From the NCBI RefSeq assembly GCF_001029285.1, contig NZ_LDZY01000002.1, positions 62,001 through 126,000 of the forward strand: a stretch of 64,000 bases of DNA. Direction: 5' to 3'. A program made the position numbers and the translations under genes. The notes under the pieces are model-generated. The model was not told where the DNA came from and did no database searches. It saw nothing but the letters and a program-made list of their open reading frames with translations. Of the stretch, positions 22,372 to 28,661 are shown in pieces. The DNA is from Desulfosporosinus acididurans. GTDB taxonomy: Bacteria; Bacillota; Desulfitobacteriia; Desulfitobacteriales; Desulfitobacteriaceae. Numbering within the stretch: the stretch's first letter is position 1; each line of letters begins with the position of its first letter.

Positions 22372-22456
22372 ATACAATACATAGTTCCATCCGACCAAGT
22401 GAATACTATAAGTCAGGTAGGTGCGCCTATACGTATACATAGGAAGGTGGTTCTCC

Positions 22457-22924
22457 ATGATCAGTCAAAAAGAACGGATGATGCTTCAAGATCAAAAAAG
22501 CCATGAAGAAATGTGTGTTCAAAAATACACGAAATATGCTAATGAGGCTCAAGATCAACAACTCAAACAGTTATTCAATGACCATGCTTCTCATGAAAAA
22601 CAACATTTTAACACTCTCAACCAAATTTTAAACGGCCAAACGCCAACCATAAGCGGTCAAGGCCAAGGTCAGCAGACCGGAGGGCAGAATCAAGCAGCGC
22701 AAACAAATCCTGCCGGACAAACTGTAAATCCTAATGATGTCGCCTTGACCAAAGATATGCTTGTAACAGAGAAGTATATCTCGGGCGCCTATGATACGGT
22801 TATCTTCGAGTGCCAAGATCATAATATTCGCCAGGCCCTAAATCATATCCAAAAGGAAGAGCAGCAGCATGGCGAAGACTTATTTAATTACCTTAGCAGC
22901 AGAGGAGCCTATCCTATTCAGTAA
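22457..22924 (+). CDS. CotF-like spore coat / ferritin-fold protein
   Basis: This 155-residue protein has two helical halves with EEMCVQKYTKYANEAQDQQLKQLFNDHASHEKQHFNTLN and a mirror EKYISGAYDTVIFECQDHNIRQALNHIQKEEQQHGEDLF. They are joined by a Gln/Gly-rich linker (residues about 56-88). The EExxC...HEKQH pattern is that of CotF-family coat proteins, which have a ferritin-like fold. The start is ATG 22457, after AGGAAGGTGG; a longer upstream reading frame lacks support. It follows the response regulator by 85 bases and may be separately regulated during sporulation. Confidence 0.8.
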   Translation: MISQKERMMLQDQKSHEEMCVQKYTKYANEAQDQQLKQLFNDHASHEKQHFNTLNQILNGQTPTISGQGQGQQTGGQNQAAQTNPAGQTVNPNDVALTKDMLVTEKYISGAYDTVIFECQDHNIRQALNHIQKEEQQHGEDLFNYLSSRGAYPIQ

Positions 22925-22958
22925 CCTAGTCTATGAATGCAATAAGGCTTTTCATCCA

Positions 22959-23002
22959 GCCTTCTGAGAGATTGTATATAACAATTTATCAGAAGGCTTT
23001 TT
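22959..23002 (+). terminator. Terminator after the CotF-like gene
   Basis: GCCTTCTGA (22959-22967) pairs with TCAGAAGGC (22989-22997), followed by TTTTTAT. Confidence 0.8.
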
Positions 23003-23010
23003 ATCCGATG

Positions 23011-23036
23011 TTCAGCTTTTGCTGAAACGAGTTCAC
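23011..23036 (-). repeat. Family A dispersed repeat, copy 2
   Basis: This is a reverse-oriented copy of the A unit: TTCAGCTTTTGCTGAA followed by ACGAGTTCAC. Confidence 0.75.
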
Positions 23037-23077
23037 TTACTCACTTTCTAGAGAACAGCATGTCAGTTAGAATCGTA

Positions 23078-23138
23078 ATTATTGACATATGTTTTTAATG
23101 ATGTATAATTAAGCTTGAAAAAGGCATATGTCAATAAT
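23078..23138 (+). promoter_or_regulatory. Promoter flanked by a 14-base inverted CATATG operator pair
   Basis: TTGACA (23082-23087) and TATAAT (23104-23109), 16 bases apart, form a strong promoter. ATTATTGACATATG (23078-23091) overlaps the -35, and its exact inverse CATATGTCAATAAT (23125-23138) lies downstream of the -10. This leaves two sites whose CATATG cores are 33 bases apart. The same layout recurs at 27835-27888. It drives the DUF134/MinD operon. Confidence 0.75.
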
Positions 23139-23322
23139 CTGAAAGGAGACTATCCGTGATGGAGGTTAATGGGTCGTAGTGCATAATCAAAGGGGCATAG
23201 TTTTTCGGCGAAATTGTTTCTATATCTGGCAAGGGGATGACATAATCGTAAAATAATGATATAAGATAAAGAAGCAGGAGAACGCTTCTGTTCCTTACGT
23301 CACAAGCAGAGGAGAACGAATT

Positions 23323-23688
23323 ATGCCAAGACCAAGAAAATGGAGAAAAGTATGTTGTTTGCCGGAAAGTAACCAATTTGGGCCGCTTAACGTTCCTATT
23401 AATCAAGAACATTTTCTGACTATGACTGTTGATGAGTATGAAACGATACGGTTGATTGATTTGGAAGGATTTACTCAGGAAGAGTCTGCAGACCAAATGA
23501 AGATAGCACGTACAACAGTTCAGCGTATTTATAATGATGCTCGGAAAAAGCTTGCAGAGTCGTTAGTCAAAGGGAAAGTGCTAAGGATTGAAGGCGGAGA
23601 TTATCAACTTTGTGACGGCCTTGAACCGTACTGTGGTTGTGGCGGCTGTCAGAAGCATCGATGTAACCGAGCTTTTCAGGAAAAATAA
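23323..23688 (+). CDS. DUF134-family DNA-binding protein
   Basis: This 121-residue protein has a sigma-70 region 4-like helix-turn-helix ([38 protein letters not shown], about 47-84). A Cys-rich C terminus ([18 protein letters not shown]) could bind zinc or an Fe-S cluster. DUF134 proteins accompany MTH1175/MinD genes in many anaerobes and are assumed to be their regulators. As first gene of the operon it is the best candidate to read the flanking inverted CATATG sites. RBS AGAGGAG precedes the ATG. Confidence 0.85.
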
Positions 23689-23760
23689 AATTGATCAAGA
23701 AACTAGTGTATGCCATTTTCAACAAAATATTCTAAATGCGCAATTTGGGAGGATTCTTTT

Positions 23761-24129
23761 ATGAAAGTTGCAATTCCGGTTAATGACAAGTCAATGGAAG
23801 CAAGTGTAAGTGAATCCTTTGGACGGACACCCTATTATTTGATTTATGATACCGAGTCAAAGGAAAGTGTATTTCTTGATAATAGTGCAATTGCCAGTCA
23901 AGGCGGTGCAGGGATAAAGGCTGCACAAATTGTTGTGGATAATAGGGTGAACGCTCTGATTACTCCACGATGTGGTGAAAATGCAGCAGAAATTATTCAA
24001 GCAGCTAATATTAAACTATTTAAAACGATTAACGACTCAATTAAGGATAATCTTACAGCTTTCGTTGAAGGAAAGTTAGCTTTATTAGAAGAGATTCATG
24101 CTGGATTTCATGGCCATGGAGGAACCTAA
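23761..24129 (+). CDS. MTH1175/NifX-like (dinitrogenase iron-molybdenum cofactor family) protein
   Basis: This 122-residue protein of the NifB/NifX/VnfX fold binds small metal clusters. Family features are MKVAIPVNDKSMEASVSESFGRTPYYLIYD at the start and VNALITPRCGENAAEII, a core with one conserved Cys. In the Desulfovibrio Orp complex a relative binds a Mo-Cu cluster. The start is ATG 23761 after TGGGAGG. It sits between the DUF134 gene and the two MinD ATPase genes; gene order and short spacing (one base to the next gene) support one operon. Confidence 0.85.
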   Translation: MKVAIPVNDKSMEASVSESFGRTPYYLIYDTESKESVFLDNSAIASQGGAGIKAAQIVVDNRVNALITPRCGENAAEIIQAANIKLFKTINDSIKDNLTAFVEGKLALLEEIHAGFHGHGGT

Positions 24130-24130
24130 G

Positions 24131-24988
24131 ATGAAGATCGCTGTGCTCAGCGGCAAAGGCGGCACAGGCAAAACACTGGTATCCGTTAATTTGGCAGCTT
24201 CTGCTATAGATTCCTGTTATATCGACTGCGATGTTGAAGAGCCTAACGGGCATCTTTTTTTTAACCCCAAGGATATAAAAACGGAGAACGTTTCTGTCAA
24301 AATTCCTAGTGTGGATAATAAACTCTGCAGCGGATGTCGGAAATGTATCGATTTTTGCAGGTTTAACGCCTTAGCCTATATCAAGAATAATTTGCTTATA
24401 TTTGACGACGTTTGTCATTTCTGCGGCGGATGTGTGCTCTTCTGCCCGGAAAAGGCTCTGTCGGAGAAAGATTATGCTGTTGGCGAGGTTCAAAGAGGTG
24501 TTTCCGGGAATGTTGAAGTCATTACAGGAATATTACATACTGGGAAAGAATCGGGCGTTCCGATTATAAAGACACTTTTAGAGAATCTCCAGGGGAATAA
24601 GAAATTCACAGTTATTGATTGTCCTCCCGGCAGCGCCTGCACAGTTATGGAAAGTATTAAGGACGCGGACTATTGCCTACTGGTGGCTGAACCTACGTTA
24701 TTTGGGGTTCACAATCTAAATATGGTTCATGAGCTGGTGACTTTGTTTGGTAAGCCACACGGTGTGGTCCTCAATAAGTGCCAGGAAGGAGACAATCCGG
24801 CGGAAGAATTTTGCTTGGAAAAAGGTATCAATATCATAGGCAAGATCCCTTTTGAAAATGAGTTGGGAACCCTAAATGCGCAAGGGCATATTGCCGTTAG
24901 AAAAAATGAAACGTATCGGGAATTCTTCTCTTCGATGCTTCAAATAGTGTCTAAGGGGGTGCAAAATGAAGCAACTACTCATCCTTAG
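24131..24988 (+). CDS. MinD-family ATPase with 2[4Fe-4S] insert (first of pair)
   Basis: This 285-residue P-loop ATPase has a deviant Walker A GKGGTGKT (residues 9-16) and an inserted ferredoxin module of two [4Fe-4S] clusters: CSGCRKCIDFC (about 64-74) and CHFCGGCVLFC (about 97-107). It continues with the VIDCPPGSAC switch region and LLVAEPTLFG. Pairs of such ATPases act with MTH1175-type proteins in the Orp complex of sulfate reducers, where a role in cell division or metal-cluster transfer is suspected. It overlaps the next gene by 23 bases. Confidence 0.88.
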   Translation: MKIAVLSGKGGTGKTLVSVNLAASAIDSCYIDCDVEEPNGHLFFNPKDIKTENVSVKIPSVDNKLCSGCRKCIDFCRFNALAYIKNNLLIFDDVCHFCGGCVLFCPEKALSEKDYAVGEVQRGVSGNVEVITGILHTGKESGVPIIKTLLENLQGNKKFTVIDCPPGSACTVMESIKDADYCLLVAEPTLFGVHNLNMVHELVTLFGKPHGVVLNKCQEGDNPAEEFCLEKGINIIGKIPFENELGTLNAQGHIAVRKNETYREFFSSMLQIVSKGVQNEATTHP

Positions 24989-25820
24989 CGGCAAAGGCGG
25001 TACCGGTAAAACAACGGTTGCCAGCGCCTTTATTAAGCTATCTGAAGCCAGGGCTTTTGCAGATTGTGACGTCGATGCTCCCAATTTGCATTTGATTTTA
25101 CATCAATCTTCGGAAGCCAGACGAGCCAACTTCTACGGTATGTCCAAAGCAGCGATTGATCCGGAATTATGTGTGCAATGTGGTTTGTGTCAGCAGTATT
25201 GTCATTTCGAGGCAATTCAGGCAGGTAGTCCTTATAACGTTGATAGCTTCGCCTGCGAAGGATGTGGTGTCTGTGAAGCGATCTGCCCTGTAAAGGCTAT
25301 ATCCTATCAACCTTCTGTAGCAGGCGAACTTATGCTTTATTCTGGTGATAGAGTGTTTTCCACTGCGCGGCTGAAAATGGGAAGCGGTAATTCGGGGATG
25401 CTGGTAACCGAAGTAAAAAGGTATATGAAGTATACAGCAATTAACGCCGACCTGGCGATCATTGATGGATCACCGGGGATTGGCTGTCCAGTGATCGCCT
25501 CGTTGAACGGTGTTGATATGGTACTGATTGTGGCAGAACCCTCTATCTCAGGCATTAGTGATATGGAACGAATCATTAAAACTGCTGAGAAATTTCAAAC
25601 GCGAATCGCAATTTGTATTAATAAATTTGATGTAAGTCAAGAGAATACAGAAAAAATTGAATCGTTTTGCCAAAGACTTAGACTTCCTATCGTAGGAAAA
25701 ATACCCTTTGATCCTGCCGCTGTCAAAGCAATCAATGAGGGGAAGAGTATTGTCGAGATGGATTGCGCTTCTGGGCGTGCCGTCAAGGATATTTTTGCTC
25801 AGACAGTAAGTTTGCTGTAA
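24966..25820 (+). CDS. MinD-family ATPase with 2[4Fe-4S] insert (second of pair)
   Basis: This 284-residue paralogue of the preceding ATPase has Walker A GKGGTGKTT (residues 9-17), ferredoxin motifs CVQCGLCQQYC (about 64-74) and CEGCGVCEAICP (about 98-109), then IIDGSPGIGCPV and LIVAEPSISGI. The overlap with the upstream gene and ribosome site GGGGGTGCAAA indicate translational coupling. The two probably form a heterodimer (inference from paired occurrence). It is the last gene of the operon, before a terminator. Confidence 0.88.
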   Translation: MKQLLILSGKGGTGKTTVASAFIKLSEARAFADCDVDAPNLHLILHQSSEARRANFYGMSKAAIDPELCVQCGLCQQYCHFEAIQAGSPYNVDSFACEGCGVCEAICPVKAISYQPSVAGELMLYSGDRVFSTARLKMGSGNSGMLVTEVKRYMKYTAINADLAIIDGSPGIGCPVIASLNGVDMVLIVAEPSISGISDMERIIKTAEKFQTRIAICINKFDVSQENTEKIESFCQRLRLPIVGKIPFDPAAVKAINEGKSIVEMDCASGRAVKDIFAQTVSLL

Positions 25821-25911
25821 AAGCTTAATCTAAAAAGGGCATAGTCTTGATCTTTTGCTTCACATATGGTACACGCTAGGTATGCGGCTAACATACAATT
25901 CAATAGGATTA

Positions 25912-25958
25912 AAACGCCTTCTGGAGTCGATTCGAGTAATCTGCTCCAGAAGGCGTTT
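25912..25958. terminator. Bidirectional terminator between convergent units
   Basis: AAACGCCTTCTGGAG (25912-25926) and CTCCAGAAGGCGTTT (25944-25958) form a perfect 15-base stem. Confidence 0.85.
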
Positions 25959-26000
25959 GTTTAAATAGTCCCTTAAATAGTCCGCCGGAAAACGTTGAAA

Positions 26001-27617
26001 TTATTCTTCTAAAAACTCCATAAACGGCTTTTTCATACTCACAAGAGCATTGACCATTAATTCTACTAAACCGCCATACTGAACATTGAACTTTGCCGTT
26101 GCTTCATAAAACTCCAGAATATCTCTAATTGCTCCTTTGCAGTTAGAACAAGGAGCGCATACATATTTAGGCTGATTGGAGTTCGCCATTGTATCCTGAA
26201 AGGCTCCAAGGATCTGATTAAACTTCATGCGCGAGCTTACTTTATTTCTCCATTCGCTGAAGTTGACGGAATTTGTAATGGCAAAGCCGCCGCCCCCGCC
26301 GCAACAATAATTATTTACTCCGTGAGGTGTCATTTCTCTAAACTGAGGGCAAATCTCCTTCAGGACATTGCGCTGTGGCTCAACAATTCCCATGCCCCGA
26401 ACATAATTACAGGGGTCATGAAGGGTCACCGGGAAATTATTTCTGCTAGGGTCCAACTTTAAACGTTTGTCCTTCACCATATTCCAAAGCAGAGGCAGGC
26501 AGCTTTCCACCGGAATCTTGTCATCACCGTAAGTCATGCGATCGCCTACAATCATGGAAGCTTTATGAGCATGACCACATTCCGCAATAACAATTCGATT
26601 GACTCCCAGTTCTTTGGCAACTTTCATTTGCAGCAAGGCAAGCTTCTTGGCCTGAAAATCATCATACCATATACCGTAGTTTACATTATCATAGCCCGCA
26701 ATTTCGCTGCTAAGTGTCCAGTCTATACCCGCTTCTTCAAAAAGAATGGCAAAAGCAATAGGGTTTTCAGGCCAAGCCATATATTCACCAGCATTGTGGA
26801 TGAGAAGAATATCGGCACCTTTTTTGTCAATGGGGAATTTGATTTTATAACCATACTTTTCCTCGATATCCTCTTCCATAAATTCGATGGTATCTAAAAA
26901 AGCAGGCTTGGTAATTCCTGTCGATGAGCCTGTTTTAAGCTGCAGGACAGTACCTTTAGTGTGGAGAGGCAGAGGTGCAATGCCCATTTCTTGGCTGAAG
27001 ATTTTACGAATCTCTTTGGTAAGAATAGAATTGTCTAAACCCAGGGGACAGGTTTGGGCACAACGGCGGCAAAGATTGCAGCGATAAGCTAATTCGCCGA
27101 GCCGGGCTATGGTTTCCCAGTTCACATCGATATCTGCGCCGACAAAACCTCCTAACAATTTCCCGCTTTTGGTAAAATATTTTTTTACGATTTTTCTTAG
27201 GACTTCGGAACGGAAAATTGGACGATATAGTTCATTTTTCCCTGATGCTTCGTAGATATGACATGCTGAGGAACAGGTATCACACTTGGCACAATATTCA
27301 AAGGACAATAAGAAGGGTTGAAGCGCCCCATTGTTACCATCCGAAAAACTTTTCTCTAAGCCGTTGAGAAACGTCTGAACGAATTTGTCCTCTTCTTCTT
27401 TAGTTTTTGGGCGTGTTAAGGTGTCAATTCCTACGTAGCCATCCAAAGAAGTACAGAATTTTTCTCTCCAGGCAGGTTTAGGATCCGTAAGCGGAGGTTC
27501 CATCCCCGGTTGATCATAAGGCGGCAGTAAAGGCATGAGCTGTCGGGGATTCACTCTGACTAGTTGTTCATCCGATCGTCCCATATCCTTGGGGCGTAAA
27601 TTTTTGTGATCTATCAT
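26001..27617 (-). CDS. DsrK/HdrD-like Fe-S heterodisulfide reductase-family protein
   Basis: This 538-residue cytoplasmic or membrane-associated Fe-S protein has two N-terminal [4Fe-4S] motifs: CAKCDTCSSACHIYE (about 112-126) and CNLCRRCAQTCPLG (about 180-193). It also has a C-terminal CCG domain with HDPCNYVRGMG, NYCCGGGGGFA and CAPCSNC. A first CCG-like repeat (LLIHNAGEYMAWPEN) has lost its cysteines, as in DsrK/HmcF. DsrK accepts electrons from the membrane quinone pool for sulfite reduction, but no DsrM or other Dsr gene is adjacent, so the partner is unknown. Its promoter shares the paired CATATG sites of the Orp-like operon. The ATG start at 27617 is kept. Confidence 0.82.
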   Translation of the reverse strand: MIDHKNLRPKDMGRSDEQLVRVNPRQLMPLLPPYDQPGMEPPLTDPKPAWREKFCTSLDGYVGIDTLTRPKTKEEEDKFVQTFLNGLEKSFSDGNNGALQPFLLSFEYCAKCDTCSSACHIYEASGKNELYRPIFRSEVLRKIVKKYFTKSGKLLGGFVGADIDVNWETIARLGELAYRCNLCRRCAQTCPLGLDNSILTKEIRKIFSQEMGIAPLPLHTKGTVLQLKTGSSTGITKPAFLDTIEFMEEDIEEKYGYKIKFPIDKKGADILLIHNAGEYMAWPENPIAFAILFEEAGIDWTLSSEIAGYDNVNYGIWYDDFQAKKLALLQMKVAKELGVNRIVIAECGHAHKASMIVGDRMTYGDDKIPVESCLPLLWNMVKDKRLKLDPSRNNFPVTLHDPCNYVRGMGIVEPQRNVLKEICPQFREMTPHGVNNYCCGGGGGFAITNSVNFSEWRNKVSSRMKFNQILGAFQDTMANSNQPKYVCAPCSNCKGAIRDILEFYEATAKFNVQYGGLVELMVNALVSMKKPFMEFLEE

Positions 27618-27834
27618 ACTTGACTCTCCTCTTCCACAACGTTAACATTCAAAAACTCATGGTGAGGTTCTCGATGTCTTTTAGAATAATTTAGTTGGAC
27701 TATGTAATCATTAAAAACTAATGTGTATGTGAATTAAGTGATAAAGTAAAAATGATAATGATATAGACAATAAATTAATAAGGCAACAGCTAACAAAAGA
27801 TAAAATAAAGTGAAGCTTAGACCTCCTTTTTAGT

Positions 27835-27888
27835 TATTGTCATATGTTCTTTTGAGGTTAATTATACTAAATATTGGGCATATGTCAA
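27835..27888 (-). promoter_or_regulatory. Promoter with paired CATATG operators upstream of the DsrK-like gene
   Basis: On the minus strand TTGACA (27888-27883) and TATAAT (27866-27861) are separated by 16 bases. CATATGTCAA (27879-27888) overlaps the -35, and TATTGTCATATG (27835-27846) lies downstream of the -10. The CATATG cores are 32 bases apart. Architecture and site sequence match 23078-23138 almost exactly. About 220 bases of leader follow before the start codon. Confidence 0.72.
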
Positions 27889-27958
27889 TTAGCCTGTTCT
27901 ATTTATCCCCATTTTAAAAAGTCGATAATTCTAGAAGCCAGAAGAAAAATGCAAAAAG

Positions 27959-27993
27959 AAAAAGACATGCAATTAATGTCTGCATGTCTTTTT
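27959..27993 (-). terminator. Terminator after the azoreductase gene
   Basis: AAAAAGACATGCA (27959-27971) pairs with TGCATGTCTTTTT (27981-27993), giving T-runs on both strands. Confidence 0.8.
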
Positions 27994-28058
27994 GATTAAG
28001 ATAAATGAATAATAAAGGGTATCCACAAATAGACGTCCTTAAAATGTCCAGCACGTAT

Positions 28059-28661
28059 TTAGAAATTTGCTGCGAGGTTTCGTGCCGCTTGGTGGCTTTG
28101 GTCGATGGCTTTTCGTAAATCATCGCCTTGTAATACATTTGCATTTTCGAGGAACAGGGATTCTACTTGATTTATGCCAAAAAAGCCAAGAATAGTTCTG
28201 ACATATTTATCACTGAGATCGAATTCTTTAGCAGCTCCTTCGCTATAGACACCGCCTCGAGAGCTGATATGAACTGCTTTACGAGGCTTATCAGCAAGGA
28301 GCCCGATTGGCCCCTCTGCCGTGTATTTAAAGGAAACACCAACGTAAGAAACATAATCGAAATAAGCCTTTAAGATAGCTGGGATCCCAAGGTTCCACAT
28401 GGGTGCAGCTATTACGTATTTATCAGCAGAGGCAAACTGATTGGCATAGTCAAGCGCCCTATTTTTCTCGCCGCTGAACATTTTTGCCAGAGTATCAGCA
28501 TCCAAAGGTTTAATGTCTTCTTTGTAAAGATCTATGATGACGATTTCGGATTCTGGATTTTTCGTTTGATACTCCTGCACAAAGACATTTGCCAGAGTAA
28601 GAGTATTGGATTGCGAATCAGCTTTAGGATTGGCTTTAACATAGAGTAACTTTTGGGTCAT
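28059..28661 (-). CDS. azoR: FMN-dependent NADH-azoreductase
   Basis: This 200-residue flavodoxin-fold quinone/azo reductase transfers two electrons from NADH to quinones or azo bonds through FMN. The FMN phosphate region KANPKADSQSNTL (about 9-21), APMWNLGIPAILKAYFDYV (about 95-113, active-site Phe/Trp region) and SSRGGVYSEGAAKEFD are AzoR hallmarks. It is a single gene with GAAAGAAGGCGG upstream of the ATG. Confidence 0.92.
   Translation of the reverse strand: MTQKLLYVKANPKADSQSNTLTLANVFVQEYQTKNPESEIVIIDLYKEDIKPLDADTLAKMFSGEKNRALDYANQFASADKYVIAAPMWNLGIPAILKAYFDYVSYVGVSFKYTAEGPIGLLADKPRKAVHISSRGGVYSEGAAKEFDLSDKYVRTILGFFGINQVESLFLENANVLQGDDLRKAIDQSHQAARNLAANF

Follow-up and report, generated by a model that had tools for sequence, protein, structure and literature searches.

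In Desulfovibrio vulgaris, the orp operons, which encode the orange protein complex, are reported to be under sigma-54 and IHF control (PMC3897727). The thioferrate storage protein IssA, whose nanoparticles are reported to be sulfur-responsive, has been placed in the same protein family as orange protein, and the consulted part of that work (PMC5524996) does not describe a member of the orange-protein-fold family as the sensory portion of a transcription factor, a role proposed here for proteins in which such a domain is fused to DUF134. DUF134 itself appears among proteins 'without any known function' in PMC7565180, and the literature searched, mostly outside subscription journals, yielded no regulator of this kind and no operator, regulon or function for DUF134/UPF0251 (PF02001, COG1342). 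Here we analyze a 64,000-nucleotide stretch of the Desulfosporosinus acididurans genome (GCF_001029285.1, contig NZ_LDZY01000002.1, positions 62,001 to 126,000; the window), in which two modules, each a sigma-70-type promoter placed between two inverted CATATG-containing sites, precede an operon headed by a DUF134 gene and a gene for a DsrK-like protein (DsrK2), respectively. Like the orp operons (PMC3897727), this locus of an anaerobe combines a NifX/ORP-like protein with P-loop ATPases, which are MinD-like here. Unlike them, it has perfect sigma-70 promoters, DUF134 as the candidate regulator and paired CATATG sites that are predicted operators; a simple consensus scan of 22900-28100 for sigma-54-like sites (TGGCAC-N5-TTGCW, at most 2 mismatches) found none. 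We consider it likely that DUF134 binds the paired sites and represses its own operon as well as other NifX-like units and the second DsrK of the genome, with a metal-sulfur species as the signal.

Two sigma-70 promoters enclosed by inverted CATATG sites

The two modules consist of the following elements.

23082-23134, plus strand: module 1 (whole)
23082..23091, plus strand: predicted operator site 1 of module 1, TTGACATATG, containing TTGACA, the -35 hexamer of the DUF134 operon (sequence; promoter scan 12/12)
23104..23109, plus strand: -10 hexamer TATAAT of module 1, 16-bp spacer (sequence; promoter scan)
23125..23134, minus strand: predicted operator site 2 of module 1, inverted TTGACATATG, reading CATATGTCAA on the plus strand (sequence)
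27888-27837, minus strand: module 2 (whole)
27879..27888, minus strand: predicted operator site 1 of module 2, TTGACATATG, containing TTGACA, the -35 hexamer of DsrK2 (sequence; promoter scan)
27861..27866, minus strand: -10 hexamer TATAAT of the DsrK2 promoter (promoter scan)
27837..27846, plus strand: predicted operator site 2 of module 2, TTGTCATATG on the plus strand and CATATGACAA on the minus strand (sequence)

A first-pass annotation of this DNA had described two identical modules, each with a 16-base spacer and a TATAAT -10 hexamer. Direct inspection of the sequence located both modules where they had been placed, with the spacer and -10 hexamer as described; they are not identical, as site 2 of module 2 (TTGTCATATG on the opposite strand) carries one mismatch. 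The reported distances of 33 and 32 bases are correct as gap lengths between the CATATG cores, not as about three helical turns: from centre to centre the cores are 39 bp (module 1) and 38 bp (module 2) apart, corresponding to about 3.7 and 3.6 turns. Within 22900-28100, the promoter scan returned 12-of-12 sigma-70 matches at the two module promoters only, and no Rfam family scored above its gathering score. If transcription starts 7 bases 3' of the -10 hexamer, the site centres of module 1 lie near -27 and +12, and therefore both sites would block the polymerase; site 2 is placed between the -10 hexamer and the first ribosome-binding-site-like AAAGGAG. A further site, TTCACATATG at 25859-25868, has neither a partner site nor a promoter match and, for these reasons, its occurrence was ascribed to chance.

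By itself, CATATG shows no enrichment in the window (10 found versus 15 expected). However, the 4.64-Mb genome contains four exact pairs of the form TTGNCATATG-N25-40-CATATGNCAA, compared to none in a reversed control, and a relaxed search of the whole genome (up to 3 mismatches, gap 28-34) returned the same four modules and no others, again with no match in the reversed control, which bears out the earlier judgement that such an arrangement is unlikely by chance. All four modules have a -35/-10 spacer of 16 and the -10 hexamer TATAAT, and all four precede DUF134/NifX-like genes or the second DsrK. Outside the window, the two remaining modules each lie 5' of a gene for a NifX-like (PF02579) protein, one on contig C8 and one on C17, the C17 gene coming behind a DUF5320 gene. 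Paired inverted TTGnCATATG sites around a sigma-70 promoter, the arrangement by which a DUF134-controlled CATATG regulon would be recognized, are hence present in this genome. No paired module was found at the single TTGACATATG sites viewed in context, which were part of the genome list, nor in the examined flanks of two of the six PF02579 genes of the genome (on C6 and C33), although CATATG sites without a partner are present at C33. The genome also encodes a DUF134 paralog (C5:33632, within L327 = G000:C5:31001-36000), behind which a PF02579 gene stands and which has a single TTGAGCATATGCCCAA just 5' of its start. At three of the four genome modules, a ribosome-site-like sequence directly follows and a small DUF5320-type gene, present in many relatives, is absent or looks decayed (gap regions 23135-23322 and 27618-27836 of the window and L003:1551-1934); by pattern, such a gene is among the first two genes at 38 of 116 named modules.

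When modules were aligned, long outer arms, GTTATTGACATATG and CATATGTCAATAAC, became apparent, while the inner arms are weaker and sometimes complete the palindrome TTGACATATGTCAA. Excluding modules of undeterminable direction, 29 of the 33 family modules aligned and 40 of 53 unfused ARTT-type modules have a -35/-10 spacer of 16, whereas the distance from the -10 hexamer to site 2 varies between 11 and 16. In 132 of 155 modules, the better strand has a -10 hexamer that matches at least 5 of 6 positions; when the inner sequences are shuffled, a good -10 arises in about 8% of cases per strand, or roughly 16% for the better of the two strands.

The module recurs with DUF134

Searching related genomes and tabulating the neighbours, a check suggested with the first-pass annotation, revealed the module in 26 of 45 genomes of the family and in none of the 45 in the reversed control; all 26 belong to the 37 family genomes that carry DUF134. 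In a sample of the phylum, DUF134 is encoded in 232 of 348 genomes (227 of them over the cut-off). When the two genome lists were matched by eye, the 36 genomes with a module all encoded DUF134 and none of the 116 genomes without DUF134 had one; the single match of the reversed control (1/348) fell in a genome lacking DUF134. Every module genome thus has DUF134 (36/36 in the phylum sample, 26/26 in the family), as would be the case for a regulon controlled by this protein, and the hypergeometric probability of the phylum co-occurrence, not corrected for kinship, is 1.7e-7.

Scanning a collection of named genomes without any gene information retrieved at least 119 stretches with a module, mostly from Bacillota; a DUF134 gene also stands behind the module in records of Synergistota, Thermotogota, Spirochaetota, Elusimicrobiota, Actinomycetota and Campylobacterota, several of which are metagenome bins. 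Open reading frames (ORFs) were then labelled with profiles built on the window proteins, examples being checked by Pfam, and counted as downstream when within 3.5 kb on either strand. Among the matches listed, which comprise 123 unique modules, 109 have a downstream DUF134 (90), NifX-like (81), MinD-like (62) or DsrK-like (6) ORF, and 14 have none of the four types, several of them near a locus end. A Pfam scan of 45 of 77 candidate neighbour ORFs identified NifU_N (6), Lactamase_B (4), Chromate_transp (4) and Fe_dep_repress (3), and no other family occurred more than twice among the 25 families listed out of 36. DtxR-type genes beside modules are located at L138:1210-1602 (by Pfam) and, judged by a look at the sequence only, at L094:4988-5380 and L113:6531-6779. 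In Acetobacterium fimetarium (L070:177-1406), the gene directly behind a module encodes a cation efflux transporter that ends in a PF02579 domain (26.5 bits, cut-off 26.3). The product of a 148-amino-acid gene in L004, at first sight DsrE-like, had no Pfam match.

Starting from the protein, we collected 142 DUF134 ORFs by protein match alone, from 38 search loci, 80 phylum-list regions among the matches listed and 20 chosen family regions; some are near-copies and one gene is included twice (L174, L222). Allowing up to 3 mismatches over 18 positions, 21 of the 142 have a pair in the 500 bp upstream, compared to none in the reversed control. The arms differ between DUF134 subfamilies around a constant CATATG core: the strict form TTGnCATATGnCA accompanies 4 of 15 ARTT, 1 of 2 ARST and 0 of 88 SRPT proteins; TTGACATAnGTTCA accompanies 15 of 88 SRPT, 2 of 15 ARTT and 1 of 4 unclassed proteins; and TTGRGCATATGCYCAA accompanies 11 of 17 SRAT proteins and none of the 125 others. 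The scan for arm variants gave one reversed-control match in all.

Genes behind the modules and the second DsrK

The genes behind the two window promoters are as follows.

23323..23688, plus strand: DUF134 protein, 121 amino acids, predicted regulator with a sigma region 4-like helix-turn-helix (Pfam, model, fold match)
23761..24129, plus strand: NifX/MTH1175-like protein with a Nitro_FeMo-Co domain (PF02579, 75.0 bits)
24131..24988, plus strand: MinD-like P-loop ATPase with an inserted 4Fe-4S ferredoxin domain (CbiA and Fer4); the ORF runs from 24098 and 24131 is the presumed start
24966..25820, plus strand: second MinD-like P-loop ATPase with an inserted ferredoxin domain (CbiA and Fer4)
26001..27617, minus strand: DsrK2, DsrK-like Fe-S/CCG protein, 538 amino acids, second copy (NF045796, 390.2 bits, cut-off 400)

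Directly 5' of module 1, on the same strand, a gene for a Coat_F/ferritin-like protein occupies 22421-22924.

DsrK2 is 80% identical to the DsrK encoded at C1:218260, which adjoins DsrM-like and DsrA genes, and it is itself flanked by an azoreductase-like gene and the orp-like operon, with no dsrM beside it; DsrK2 is therefore regarded as a lone duplicate. The curated NF045796 cut-off is missed by DsrK2 and also by the C1 copy (395.8 bits). In ten genomes of the genus, the window's included, DsrK2 or an orthologue with 87-96% identity is encoded behind a module (G000, the window's genome, G010, G012, G013, G015, G017, G018, G024, G027 and G035; a part of the genus examined). Seven of the ten have a back-to-back pair of modules in the interval that separates DsrK2 from the DUF134 operon, G027 has one module shared by both, and G000 and G024 have their two modules at a distance of 4.8 kb, compared to less than 0.3 kb elsewhere. 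The same arrangement of DsrK2 and module is found in a Desulfosporosinus record (L106) and in D. hippei (L148), whose module sequences equal those of G018 and G010, so that they probably represent the same species. In other genomes of the genus, a module lies 5' of a different HmcF/TmcB/DsrK-like protein of 409-411 amino acids. These orthologues in ten genomes support the earlier proposal that the DUF134/NifX-like/MinD operon and the DsrK-like gene form one regulon. Both units hold as predicted members, though the regulon as first drawn was incomplete, as two further NifX-like units exist and the DsrK is a second copy.

Predicted fold of DUF134 and its fusion to NifX-like domains

The window DUF134 is a clear member of its family (PF02001, 75.2 bits, cut-off 27) and additionally matches Sigma70_ECF (25.2 bits, cut-off 21.1) and, just under the cut-off of 24.1, Sigma70_r4 (23.9 bits). 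The sigma matches cover residues 29-81 of 121, the region 4 part only, and no other sigma region, such as region 2 or a part for binding the RNA polymerase core, was matched in this protein. A sequence search for a solved relative of DUF134 produced no convincing hit (best E 0.022). AlphaFold2 models were obtained for the window DUF134 (predicted local distance difference test score, pLDDT, 80) and for a fused protein (pLDDT 76). In both models, DUF134 residues from about 15 to 85 align with sigma region 4, including the -35-DNA-bound structures 2h27, 1ku7 and 6jhe (Z 6-7.6), and the fold list of the window protein consists mostly of sigma region 4 structures (Z 6-7.5). The model thus resembles region 4 of Thermus sigma-A with -35 DNA (1ku7; Z 6.2, root-mean-square deviation 3.0, 61 aligned residues) and region 4 of E. 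coli sigma-E with -35 DNA (2h27; Z 6.8, root-mean-square deviation 4.6, 62 aligned residues), with which it may share the TTGACA contact as well as the fold. DUF134 is accordingly modelled as a sigma region 4 fold, in agreement with Pfam, and such a -35-reading domain probably reads operators that contain TTGACA, which is the simplest account of the two observations. Unlike sigma factors, DUF134 is a predicted repressor, and its target would be a palindromized -35 element with a CATATG core.

A single chain that combines DUF134 and PF02579 is the product of the first gene behind the module in Selenomonas, Anaerovibrio, Butyrivibrio, other Lachnospiraceae and one Coriobacteriaceae record. Both domains scored over the cut-off in five of six long DUF134 proteins scanned (L064, L074, L109, L134 and L155), and in the sixth, from Poseidonibacter (L086), the second domain fell just under it (25.4 versus 26.3). 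The C-terminal half of the modelled fused protein matches orange protein (2wfb, Z 16.7), MTH1175 (1eo1, Z 12.8) and NifX (Z 11.6), and is predicted to share the fold of orange protein, MTH1175, NafY and NifX. In some gut bacteria, a NifX/orange-protein domain fused to DUF134 is likely to act as its sensor. All 17 fused ORFs inspected (L064:2210-2938 and 16 others, some of them near-copies) have AAAGG or AAGGG shortly 5' of an in-frame ATG at the start of PF02579; given this ribosome-site-like purine stretch and internal ATG, a free second product is possible. The gap between the sites is 27-31 at fused and 32 or 33 in 40 of 70 unfused modules. A link between fusion and short spacing was dropped, as a tree of 83 domains contains only 2 fusion changes, giving 1-2 independent pairs and no statistical support.

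Discussion

DUF134 is the best candidate for the regulator because of its exclusive co-occurrence with the module, its position in its own operon in several phyla, the subfamily-linked motif variants and a fold type that binds the -35 element. According to the mechanism that we propose, each module would be a sigma-70-type promoter flanked on both sides by an operator for a single regulator, encoded by the first gene of the main operon. Site 1 (consensus GTTATTGACATATG) contains the -35 hexamer and site 2, its inverted copy, lies just past the presumed start point; DUF134, as a stand-alone sigma region 4-like domain, would read TTGACA together with the CATATG core as a dimer and, when present on both sites, would keep RNA polymerase off. 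The repressed set would comprise the operon of DUF134 itself with its NifX/orange-protein-like protein and two ferredoxin-bearing MinD-like ATPases, more NifX-like units and the second DsrK. Repression would most likely be relieved by a metal-sulfur species, of the iron-sulfur type or another, that the NifX-like partner handles; where it is fused to DUF134, this partner would make a one-component sensor.

Several observations weigh against this reading. Repression is deduced from the promoter overlap, which is its sole basis, and DtxR-family genes in a few operons (3/45 neighbour ORFs scanned) mean that a second regulator is possible. The fold matches stay below Z 8, a range that the tool itself calls common. 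No pair within 3 mismatches lies upstream of 121 of the 142 DUF134 ORFs and 196 of the 232 phylum genomes with DUF134 lack this exact module, so that the family-wide operator is looser or different. All 11 SRAT matches come from one genus, the co-occurrence and subfamily counts take no account of common descent, and a TTCA-type arm in two ARTT cases, together with the absence of any tested arm in 73 of 88 SRPT cases, indicates that the arm code is not strict.

The first-pass annotation had also named the DUF134 protein as repressor, acting by DNA looping or cooperatively, on the grounds of three helical turns between cores. The assignment agrees with the exclusive co-occurrence and the predicted fold; the geometric argument is not supported. 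Cooperative binding to two sites, or looping between two promoters, by DUF134 or another protein would fit the two inverted sites per promoter with their strong outer arms (GTTATTGACATATG...CATATGTCAATAAC) and the back-to-back modules in the divergent intergenic region of seven genomes of the genus. However, while the sites recur in relatives, their spacing varies: centre-to-centre distances span 31 to 46 bp, peaking at 38/39 and at 33, and do not fall into one helical phase. Most modules have 38/39, another module of this genome has 36 and most fused-type records have 33. Looping by helical phase was rejected for this reason; the -35/-10 spacer is moreover steadier than the distance to site 2, and the inter-module distance changes from 4.8 kb to less than 0.3 kb between genomes. 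We therefore regard cooperativity or looping as unlikely.

It is still less probable that the modules are recognized by a different transcription factor, with its gene elsewhere, and that DUF134 is just a frequent passenger. The DtxR-like neighbours would suit such a factor, and proximity alone is weak evidence, because DUF134 and NifX-like genes are neighbours anyway, but a mere passenger would hardly explain why the module is absent from all DUF134-less genomes of the sample, why modules precede DUF134 genes in several phyla, why a DUF134 paralog in the same genus has its own CATATG-core variant, or why DUF134-NifX fusions stand directly behind modules. Least probable of all, and very unlikely in our view, is that the inverted repeats mainly form a bidirectional promoter, with one -35 per strand around a shared -10, instead of an operator. 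The weaker strand does carry a -10 of at least 5/6 in 40 of 155 modules, more than the per-strand frequency in shuffled sequences, and a single symmetrical module lies between divergent targets at L019:1501-1552, L037:1501-1552 and L168:3762-3812; yet the pair tracks DUF134 across genomes, and CATATG, which to our knowledge belongs to no standard promoter element, stays unchanged at the core of the DUF134-linked variants, one of which has a single site.

With DUF134 as the preferred regulator, what is new is the operator together with its regulon, and the role assigned to DUF134; a repressor that blocks a promoter is a known principle. More tentatively, and with somewhat more doubt than confidence, we suggest that DUF134 proteins may be widespread metal-sulfur-cluster-responsive repressors derived from a freed sigma region 4 that reads a palindromized -35 element, with an orange-protein/NifX-fold sensor that is a separate protein in most bacteria and fused in others, and that a fused gene, through its internal ribosome site and start, may yield both the repressor and an unlinked ligand carrier. 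DUF134 is encoded in two thirds of the phylum genomes sampled, and a defined operator and regulon make this family, as well as the obscure NifX/MTH1175/MinD operons, directly testable. In D. acididurans, the regulon would also connect a metal-sulfur regulator with sulfate reduction, in which DsrK, duplicated here, transfers electrons.

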